Part shown: positions 19,426-22,090 of the stretch, one piece after another
How the letters are laid out: each line of letters starts with the position of its first letter
Position numbering within the stretch: the first letter of the stretch is position 1
Origin: a virus
IMG/VR virus record: IMGVR_UViG_3300049810_000816
Location: 1-53,987 of that record
Length of the DNA: 53,987 nucleotides
Direction: 5' to 3' (one strand)
The notes under the pieces: generated by a model
What the model was told of the DNA's origin: nothing
The model's database searches: none
Seen by the model: only the letters and a program-made list of their open reading frames with translations
Position numbers and translations under genes: made by a program

Positions 19426-19463
19426 AAAACCCTCTTGTATTCTTATACGAAAGGGTGTATAAT
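19426..19463 (+). promoter_or_regulatory. Promoter of gp32 with inverted repeat across the spacer
   Basis: TTGTAT (19435-19440), 17-nt spacer, TATAAT (19458-19463). An imperfect inverted repeat (ACCCTCTTGTAT, TCTT, ATACGAAAGGGT, 10 of 12 positions pairing) spans about 19429-19456, covering the -35 and spacer. The rest of the 117-nt gap before gp32 shows only the TAGGAG ribosome site (19498-19503). Confidence 0.65.
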
Positions 19464-19509: not shown

Positions 19510-20409
19510 ATGTCAACATCATTAGATAAACTAAGAGCAGCCATGGAAACGGCTTCACCTACAGAAGGTGCTAAAAAATCCTACTCAGACGACACTATGT
19601 GGAAACCCGAACTAGATAAAACTGGTAATGGTTATGCAGTGGTTCGTTTTTTACCTACTCCCGATGGAGAAGAGATGCCTTGGGTATCATACTTTGACCA
19701 CGGGTTCCAAGGGCCAGGTGGTTGGTATATTGAGAAGTCTTTAACGACTCTTAATAAACAAGACCCTGTCTCTGAATACAATTCAACGTTGTGGAATACA
19801 GGTATCGAAGCAAATAAAGAGATTGCACGTAAACAAAAAAGACGTTTACATTATGTGTCAAATGTCTATGTTGTTTCAGACCCTAAAAATCCCGACAATG
19901 AAGGTAAAGTCTTCAAATACAGATTTGGTAAAAAAATCTTTGAACAACTCAAAGAAGCTATCTCACCTGCGTTTGATGACGAAGCTCCAATCAATCCTTT
20001 TGATTTGAGAGGAGAAGGTGCAAACTTTAAAATCAAAATCAGAAAAGTAGACGGATACTGGAACTATGATAAATCAGAGTTCGAAAGTCCTTCACCACTT
20101 TTTGATGATGAAAATAGGTTGAATGAGATAAATAATTCAACATATTCTTTATCAGATGTAATTGCACCTAGTGAGTTCAAGTCTTATGACGAACTAAAAG
20201 AGAAACTCGATAGAGTTCTCGGACTCACTGGAAGTGTATCTACTGCTACTGCAGAATCAGTTGCTGAAGACCTAGACGAAGTGCCTTGGTCAAATGTAAA
20301 CACTGAGACTGTTGCAGAGGAACCTGTAATCGCATCAGCAGAATCTACTCCACAAGTTGAAGAAGATGACGCGATGGATTACTTTAAGAAACTAGCTTCT
20401 GATAGTTAG
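19510..20409 (+). CDS. 32: gp32 single-stranded DNA-binding protein, zinc-free variant
   Basis: 299 aa. Residues about 100-170 match the T4 gp32 core (YVSNVYVVSDP, NEGKVFKYRFGKKIF, GANFKIKI), and the C-terminal 60 residues are acidic, the segment that binds partner proteins. T4 gp32 holds a structural zinc with three Cys and one His; this protein has no cysteine at all, so the zinc site is lost. It coats single-stranded DNA during replication, recombination and repair. Own promoter upstream. Confidence 0.9.
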   Translation: MSTSLDKLRAAMETASPTEGAKKSYSDDTMWKPELDKTGNGYAVVRFLPTPDGEEMPWVSYFDHGFQGPGGWYIEKSLTTLNKQDPVSEYNSTLWNTGIEANKEIARKQKRRLHYVSNVYVVSDPKNPDNEGKVFKYRFGKKIFEQLKEAISPAFDDEAPINPFDLRGEGANFKIKIRKVDGYWNYDKSEFESPSPLFDDENRLNEINNSTYSLSDVIAPSEFKSYDELKEKLDRVLGLTGSVSTATAESVAEDLDEVPWSNVNTETVAEEPVIASAESTPQVEEDDAMDYFKKLASDS

Positions 20410-20419
20410 TTTCTACATG

Positions 20420-20575
20420 GGGTAGTCGTTTAATTCATTATGAATAATTTGAAATGACGACTACAACACTAAGGTCGTGGACATGGGGATACTTAGTAAG
20501 GGAAAGGTCAATAGCATAAGCGGATTGGTCGGTGAAGAACGGGTTGCTGTAAGGCGTGGGGTGACTTCACACTAT
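20420..20575 (+). ncRNA. Putative structured RNA between gp32 and methyltransferase
   Basis: This gap of about 180 nt has no ORF and is visibly richer in G than its surroundings. Stems: GTAGTCGT (20422-20429) with ACGACTAC (20457-20464), enclosing ATTCA/TGAAT (20433-20445); ACTAAG (20468-20473) with CTTAGT (20492-20497); GTGAAG (20532-20537) with CTTCAC (20565-20570). ACGAC could instead pair with GTCGT at 20474-20478, giving two exclusive folds. No T-tract follows, so it is not a simple terminator. It may be the 3' end of gp32 mRNA, a leader of the methyltransferase, or a separate small RNA. Confidence 0.55.
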
Positions 20576-20588
20576 TTAAGATTATATT

Positions 20589-21476
20589 ATGAAAAGTGAA
20601 TACTACAAAAACATACTACCATGGAATGAGAACGAGAGGGTTATTGACCAGTTTGGTTGGAACCCACAATCAGTTATCACTCCAACTAAATCGTCTAAGA
20701 ACAATTGGGACGATGCATACTTAACTGCATACGAAGAGAAGAGAGGAGTTTGTCCTCGTCTTCCTAACGGGTTAATGATGAGTGAGTTTCATGCTGGTTT
20801 ATGTGAGAACATAGTTCACTATTGGTCTATGGTTGGTGATACAATCGTTGACCCTTTTGCTGGAAGAATGACACGTGCATTTGTGTCTGCTTCATTAGGA
20901 AGAGATTATGTTGGTTATGACGTATCTTCTGAAACAGTAAGTAAAGTCAGAGAGGAAATGGGAAGACATTCCTTTGACGGATACTACGATATTGTAGAGA
21001 GTGACGGGTGTGAAATGTCTCATACAGATGATGAGAGTGCAAACCTAGTTATGACTTGTCCACCTTATGGTGATATAGAAAGATACGAAAGTGCAGAAGG
21101 TCAGTTATCCGACCTAAGAAAGTATGAAGACTTTTGTAATAGGATACAAGTTTGTGGAGATAACATAGAACGAGTTTTAAAGCCAGGAGGTTTTGCAGTT
21201 TGGGTTTGTGGTGATTGGAGAAGAGACGGAGAATACAAACCTTTTCATTCAGACACTATAAATATGTTCACTAAGTCGGGTCTGAAATTACATGATATAA
21301 TTGTAATGAAGAACGACACTATATTTGCAGCTTTACAAGCAGGTAAATGTGCAAGTAAAAGATACACTGCAAAGGTGCATGAATTCATCTTAGTGTTTCG
21401 TAAAGAAGGGGAACTAGAATATAGTTCAGATAAAATAAAAAACAGAGAGGAATCTTTAGAACAATTTTTCAAATAA
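20589..21476 (+). CDS. DNA methyltransferase (N4-cytosine/N6-adenine type)
   Basis: 295 aa. Motif I-like [14 protein letters not shown] (near residue 82) is followed by CPPYGD (near 155), the catalytic PPY motif IV, and then [13 protein letters not shown] as in phage modification methylases. Motif I precedes IV, consistent with a gamma-type order. No restriction partner nearby, so an orphan phage methyltransferase that could protect phage DNA or mark it. No Shine-Dalgarno site is seen before the ATG; the preceding leader is the structured stretch above. Confidence 0.8.
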
Positions 21477-21477
21477 T

Positions 21478-21723
21478 ATGCCAAGTGTTAAACCAAGAGT
21501 AAATCCAAAGAATAGAATGGAAGAACCATTCGATAAAGTGTTAAGACGCTTTAAAAAAGAATGTGAGAAGAAAGGTATCGTGCAAGAATGCAGAGATAGA
21601 AAGTATCACGAGAAACCTAACGACACTAGGAATCAGAAGAATCAAGAATTAAAAAGAAGAAAGAAACTCAATAAGAAGAAATCATTACTAGAACAAAATC
21701 GTAGAGTTAGAGGAGTTAGATGA
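21478..21723 (+). CDS. rpsU: Ribosomal protein bS21
   Basis: 81 aa. [16 protein letters not shown], then [14 protein letters not shown] and a lysine/arginine-rich C-terminus are the bS21 signature. Slightly longer than cellular bS21 (about 70 aa) because of an N-terminal extension of about 15 residues. bS21 sits near the anti-Shine-Dalgarno end of 16S rRNA on the 30S platform and affects initiation. Phage-borne bS21 is known from marine phages and is proposed to replace host copies on ribosomes. One nt after the methyltransferase; overlaps the next gene by 4 nt. Confidence 0.9.
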
Positions 21724-21896
21724 GAACAAAAAGAGAGAAACGAATCATTAGACAATTTCTCATCTCTGCAACTATCGGGATACTAGGATTGATTGGTGCA
21801 ATCTATATCTACTTAAACTATCAACCACCATTGAATACACCTAAAGATTATATTGATTCACCTATACAGGAAACAGCAGAAGAGAGATACACATGA
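21720..21896 (+). CDS. Small single-pass membrane protein
   Basis: 58 aa. Basic N-terminus ([11 protein letters not shown]), one transmembrane segment (about residues 13-33) and an acidic tail. Overlaps bS21 and the next gene by 4 nt each. Unknown. Confidence 0.6.
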
Positions 21897-22090
21897 ACTG
21901 GCACGGAGGGAAAGGTTCCAAAAGAAGGAACTCAGACGATAAACTCTACTCAGATAACTGGGAGAAAATCTTTGGCAAACCTAAACCCGAAATCTCTGTT
22001 CGTAAAGAAACACCTACCCATGGGTCTACTCAGATTCATAAAGATAAAACAAAGACAATCCCTCGTAAAGAGAAGTATAAAACTATTTAA
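21893..22090 (+). CDS. Small basic conserved protein
   Basis: 65 aa, starts [16 protein letters not shown], a pattern seen in T4-like marine phages as far as I recall; probably disordered and basic. Last plus-strand gene before the minus block; its stop abuts the stop of the convergent tape-measure-like gene with no gap. Confidence 0.65.
   Translation: MNWHGGKGSKRRNSDDKLYSDNWEKIFGKPKPEISVRKETPTHGSTQIHKDKTKTIPRKEKYKTI

Follow-up and report, generated by a model that had tools for sequence, protein, structure and literature searches.

A structured RNA conserved 3' of gene 32 in uncultured marine T4-like phages

Locus and fold of the RNA

The window, a stretch of 53,987 nt covering the whole of IMG/VR virus record IMGVR_UViG_3300049810_000816, carries a gp32 gene followed by a gap, a methyltransferase-like gene and a gene for a bS21-like ribosomal protein, the identity of which was based on Pfam PF01165 matches in related contigs. 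The structured RNA lies in the gap, and the coordinates of all features are displayed in Table 1. The gap had been described as much richer in G than its neighbours, and this was borne out: G accounted for 27% of positions 20410-20588 and 31% of 20420-20572, compared to 20% of gp32 and 23% of the methyltransferase gene. As also stated, a T-tract is absent from the window at this site and no Shine-Dalgarno sequence precedes the methyltransferase ATG. As a neighbour of the RNA, the methyltransferase-like gene is mobile: it was absent between the RNA and bS21 in 63 of 103 contexts and located elsewhere in two loci (L054 and L055). Further downstream, 3' of bS21, a small basic protein with a KGSKRR motif is encoded at 21893-22090 of the window.

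Table 1. Features of the gp32 locus and parts of the RNA, in window coordinates
Feature	Positions	Strand	Basis and remarks
sigma70-like promoter 5' of gp32, TTGTAT-17-TATAAT	19435..19463	+	by eye
gp32, single-stranded-DNA-binding protein	19510..20409	+	tblastn match to T4-like phage gp32; adjacent 5' neighbour of the RNA in homologues
whole structured RNA	20417..20573	+	cmsearch with covariance model R1 (window sequence among its building set), 151 bits, sole match in window
P1	20422-20429/20457-20464	+	8 bp; unpaired GGG 5' of it; loop often UUAUGUGUCCKUGA in relatives
P2	20468-20476 with 20488-20490 and 20492-20497	+	A20491 bulged; loop with conserved GUGGA and GGGG
P2/P3 linker, unpaired purines AAGGGAAA	20498..20505	+	columns invariant or nearly so
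P3	20506-20512/20524-20530	+	inner 2-bp 20514-20515/20520-20521; conserved GCGG
P4	20532-20537/20565-20570	+	encloses conserved CGGG, GGGG and covarying purine-pyrimidine pair A20539-U20562
P5, GCU-GUAA-GGC, GNRA loop	20546..20555	+	3-bp hairpin inside P4
methyltransferase-like gene	20589..21476	+	ORF; between the RNA and bS21 in 40/103 distinct contexts
bS21-like ribosomal protein gene	21478..21723	+	ORF; next gene after the RNA in 63/103 distinct contexts

The RNA is about 155 nt long and is composed of four covarying helices and a small GNRA hairpin around a conserved purine-rich core. The three stems of the original prediction were located exactly where it had placed them, at 20422-20429/20457-20464 (8 bp), 20468-20473/20492-20497 (6 bp) and 20532-20537/20565-20570 (6 bp), while the fourth stem (P3) and the GNRA hairpin (P5) had been overlooked. 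The folding energy of the window sequence was only modestly better than that of shuffled sequences (z = -1.7, with 11 of 200 shuffles equally stable), so energetics alone would not settle the structure.

Covariation, distribution and descent

Covariation was determined on an alignment (A1) of 48 diverse homologues, made by MAFFT from sequence alone, and the structure scored was a hand-derived one of 35 base pairs drawn from the window sequence. In A1, 88.0% of cells were paired, and 27 of the 35 pairs were doubly changed, with 304 doubly changed cells. The covariation score was 0.511, compared to 0.176 for shuffled alignments (sd 0.009), and none of 500 shuffles scored as high. When the pairing was slid along the same 48 sequences the score was at most 0.143, and here the derivation from the window favours the true over the slid pairing in the percentage paired, not in the doubly changed pairs.

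The single helices showed the same picture in A1. P2 was paired in 97.7% of cells with 6 of 9 pairs doubly changed, P3 in 93.8% with 8 of 9, and P4 in 98.3% with 5 of 6, and P5 was paired in 91% of cells with UG, UA and AU as the types of its loop-closing pair. The low figure of 62% for P1 was due to register shifts in the sequence-only alignment; after realignment to R1, a structure-fitted alignment, 98% of its cells were paired and all 8 pairs were changed on both sides. Unprompted, RNAalifold recovered P2, P3 and P4 and added the purine-pyrimidine pair inside P4, which was GC in 30 and AU in 17 of the 48 sequences and again GC in 47 and AU in 33 of 80. Additionally, the first linker base after P2 was coupled to P5 (AU 74, UA 5, CG 1), with few independent changes. 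In this way, the structured RNA proposed from one sequence was confirmed by covariation in homologous gaps 3' of gp32, well past the shuffle and slide controls. Missing covariation and a freely variable gap were both checked for, and neither was seen. As the shape has been conserved while the sequence diverged, these results suggested that the RNA is almost certainly functional, its fold having been kept by evolution as the letters changed.

The two exclusive folds that had been proposed for the gap did not stand. The alternative pairing of the ACGAC arm of P1 with GTCGT at 20474 is present in the window, but a complement of the P1 3' arm was found near P2 in just 1 of the 48 diverse homologues. 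The sequence of P1 varied freely, with compensating changes, and no complement to it was conserved near P2, so the two-state switch was rejected; conserved mutually exclusive folds of the kind expected of a riboswitch or leader were not detected among these homologues.

The distribution of the RNA was revealed by several searches. With the proteins encoded by gp32 and the methyltransferase gene as queries, 158 loci were obtained from IMG/VR, and relatives of the gap were found 3' of gp32 where gp32 was ~80-100% identical, even where the methyltransferase gene was lacking. Pattern scans of the whole of IMG/VR, made independently of gp32 and with the first viral pattern spaced for one subtype only, gave at least ~190 genuine matches, and among the matches listed with enough upstream sequence the motif lay ~96-168 nt 3' of gp32 in every one. 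An occurrence away from gp32 was considered and dismissed, since the 20 third-pattern matches without gp32, among the matches listed, were unrelated sequence. In the window and in each of three contigs, 130-146 kb long, R1 found one copy; a search of the three contigs for the photosystem family PF00124 was negative, so they are probably not typical cyanophages. In 257 Gb of bacterial genomes two pattern matches were obtained, about the number expected by chance. One (L379) held no RNA, and the other (L378; JAAXIF010000105.1, a Sphingobacteriales MAG) was a true match of 143.5 bits with the gene order gp32-RNA-methyltransferase-bS21. Because this order equals that of the window, the sequence is most likely a contig of a T4-like phage binned into the MAG. 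No significant match to the RNA was found in 50,697 phage records, nor in plasmid records.

A diverged element was detected at the same site in a sister lineage (lineage C), the gp32 of which is ~57-66% identical to that of the lineage of the window (lineage A). Retained in the lineage C element are the GGG before P1, the GUGUC of the P1 loop, a P2 loop with GGGG, the linker GAGGAAAG, the GCGG of P3, CGGU and the P4 core RGCGGG...GGGGCY, and an extra hairpin stands between P1 and P2. In an alignment of 25 members of this lineage (A2), 26 of 39 pairs were doubly changed and the covariation score was 0.389, compared to 0.179 after shuffling. With covariation past its controls in two lineages, functionless chance folding of a G-rich spacer, to which the unremarkable single-sequence energy (z -1.7) could have pointed, is already refuted, and its probability is negligible.

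The models of the two lineages also found each other at the syntenic site, with E-values that are rough and individually weak: R1, the lineage A model, detected lineage C loci in the gap after gp32 (L133 at E 1.7e-4; L138, L147 and L142 at E 0.07-0.28), and R2, a model of the lineage C core, detected lineage A loci at the RNA site (L090 at E 0.029 and L030 at E 0.29). Relatives without the RNA gave no match with R1 or R2. Given that weakness, it was the matching place and the gp32 tree that assigned both lineages to one family. In the midpoint-rooted gp32 tree, lineages A and C formed one group with support of 100/99, and T4-like phages without the RNA, Melnitz, HTVC008M, Mosig and cyanophages among them, lay outside. 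As one gp32 clade holds both RNA lineages and the RNA-less phages are outside it, the RNA likely had a single origin and then descended with gp32.

Transcription and candidate roles

Promoter-like motifs and gene order were compared between the two lineages. In lineage C, a T4-type late promoter motif, TATAAATA, was found 6-28 nt 3' of the gp32 stop codon in all 28 non-redundant loci and 97-112 nt before the GAGGAAAG core, with a chance expectation of ~0.004 per locus; the same motif was found in 0 of 252 lineage A loci. Beyond the RNA, nearly all lineage C loci with enough sequence carried a long convergent ORF of ~260-390 aa, which usually ended within ~30 nt of the RNA. Two loci (L131 and L133) had a small sense gene there instead, and a relative of the KGSKRR-motif protein appears to be encoded directly 3' of the RNA in the same two loci. 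Judged from the late motif and the convergent ORF, a late transcript of lineage C would mostly hold the RNA and no sense gene, and the RNA of this lineage appears to be transcribed on its own, leading no gene.

Lineage A was represented by 103 distinct contexts, in which the next gene was bS21 (63) or the methyltransferase (40), with start codons ~20-30 nt beyond the RNA. Eight of the 63 bS21 genes had their own promoter-like site between the RNA and the start codon. A T-run of five or more followed the RNA directly in 44 of the 103 contexts and was absent in 59, the window included. In the window, the sigma70-like promoter 5' of gp32 suggested that the RNA is probably made together with gp32.

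This arrangement in lineage A, with bS21 or the methyltransferase and then bS21 starting so close behind the RNA, could speak for a cis-regulatory leader of either gene, namely a riboswitch or a ribosomal-protein leader. It is set against the convergent gene after the RNA in most lineage C loci, the eight bS21 genes with promoter-like sites of their own, the occurrence of the same RNA before different genes and the lack of a conserved alternative fold. Since a sense gene is lacking downstream of the RNA in most lineage C loci, a 5'-UTR position was not found to be general, and a leader role is improbable; as a general role, that of a leader of the methyltransferase or bS21 was excluded by the contexts of lineages A and C. 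An elaborate intrinsic terminator or attenuator ending the gp32 operon would explain the T-runs right after the RNA in 44 contexts, but 59 of the 103 have none, and P1, P2, P3 and the conserved loops are unnecessary for termination, which made this explanation more improbable still.

The reading that we prefer, at a probability of roughly 0.55, is an RNP-type noncoding RNA of the phage that derives from the gp32 transcription unit, acts in trans and serves middle or late infection. The RNA would form the 3' portion of that unit, and in the sister lineage a late promoter of its own, just 3' of the gp32 stop codon, would provide an additional start. The RNA would then be separate, either processed from gp32 or initiated just behind it, and would act in trans, most probably by scaffolding an RNA-protein complex at the middle or late stage of infection. 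We infer the discrete transcript, the trans action and the protein binding. The late motif in 28 of 28 lineage C loci and the convergent ORF support this reading, as the RNA would there be made without a sense gene. Covariation in both lineages, the fixed site 3' of gp32, the single gp32 clade, the promoter-like sites of bS21 and the T-run after the RNA are also consistent with it. Against it, the late motif is missing from lineage A, where the RNA may be only a part of the gp32 or the downstream mRNA, and its unvarying association with gp32 would suit a cis-acting 3' UTR too.

Such a 3' UTR of gp32, which would shield the 3' end, set mRNA lifetime or feed back on gp32 synthesis with no role for free RNA, is the leading rival of the trans-acting RNA. 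The RNA lies directly 3' of gp32 and is inherited with it, whatever the next gene, and the T-runs of lineage A would suit such a role. However, the lineage C late motif stands between the gp32 stop codon and the RNA in every locus and would make the RNA without gp32, the conserved unpaired motifs surpass the needs of a protective 3' hairpin, and T4-like phages lacking the RNA have a plain hairpin and T-run after gp32 instead. We consider the 3' UTR possible, though on the unlikely side.

A bolder form of the trans-acting RNA is a new class of phage RNA (an RNP scaffold or a ribozyme) whose single origin would lie in an ancestral phage of one marine T4-like clade, which one lineage would express as an independent late transcript, and which would have an unusual tertiary core around conserved unpaired G-tracts; this was put forward as tentative. 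A G-quadruplex core formed by the conserved G-tracts is possible.

Several other candidates were rejected. Likenesses seen by eye to RNase P RNA (GAGGAAAG/ACAGA) and to 16S rRNA (GCGUGGGG) had no Rfam support, and for RNase P RNA the motif order differs as well. A CsrA sponge was set aside by eye, as the GGA motifs in conserved loops are too few. An encoded peptide was discarded, since lengths vary without regard to frame and the helices covary.

Relation to known RNAs and significance

In phage T4, gene 32 has an autoregulatory leader, a 5' element with a small pseudoknot and an unstructured site. Both it and the RNA described here are structured RNAs tied to gp32 of a T4-like phage. However, the T4 element is a 5' leader with a pseudoknot, and the present RNA, with its four helices, follows the gene on its 3' side.

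Rfam 15 at its curated gathering thresholds gave zero family matches in the window, with wcaG, manA and the known ribozymes and riboswitches among the families covered. Relaxing the limit to E 10 added a single meaningless match in the gap, to the microRNA mir-203, and for lineage C there was none at this limit. ARAGORN detected 0 tRNA or tmRNA genes in the window. The earlier view that the gap is not recognisable as a tRNA, tmRNA, hammerhead or common riboswitch was in agreement with these results.

Three RNAs of marine T4-like cyanophages, wcaG (RF01761), manA (RF01745) and PhotoRC-II (RF01717), came from comparative genomics and were described as lying upstream of metabolic or photosynthesis genes (PMC2864571). 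The gp32 RNA resembles them as a structured RNA of marine T4-like phages in marine metagenomes. In contrast to them, it follows a replication gene, and one of its lineages mostly lacks a sense gene downstream of the RNA; no match to them was found. Another structured RNA that lies 3' of a gene is the L17 downstream element (RF01708), which follows a bacterial ribosomal-protein gene, often with no annotated gene behind (PMC2864571). It differs in that the RNA here had no Rfam match, and the passage on it describes no promoter between gene and element.

Among related marine T4-like phages, Melnitz (L160) has a tmRNA as a structured RNA gene (PMC9004378), which lies ~2.3 kb upstream of gp32. The tmRNA belongs to a known family with a tRNA-like domain, none of which was found in the window by ARAGORN and Rfam. 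Passages of two papers on related phages (PMC9004378 and PMC7029224) describe a tmRNA, a glutamine riboswitch and bS21, and not an RNA 3' of gp32. Melnitz-like phages have a different conserved element after gp32 (L160:3877-4000; L145 from 3610; L150 from 3431; L158 from 3865), with the motifs GGTATAC..TAG, TATCCTTGgTGTG, AACACCACA and AGACTAGGTAGTAA and a terminator-like hairpin after it. This element gave no match to R1 and may be another structured 3' RNA.

No description of the gp32 RNA was found in the literature, in which the 2017 list of 224 candidate motifs (Weinberg et al.) was covered through Rfam only. The RNA is a new family, as compared with the 2017 motifs via Rfam, of a known general kind, the structured noncoding RNAs of phages. 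Its carriers are uncultured marine T4-like phages. Few large folded noncoding RNAs are known from lytic T4-like phages. The gp32 RNA occurs commonly in viral metagenomes of marine origin and covaries strongly in both lineages, while having no Rfam match and no counterpart among the phage records that were searched. With its sequence, boundaries, structure and the promoter motif of one lineage, it is a defined target for studying the role of such an RNA in a lytic phage, and it can be searched for at once in marine metatranscriptomes.
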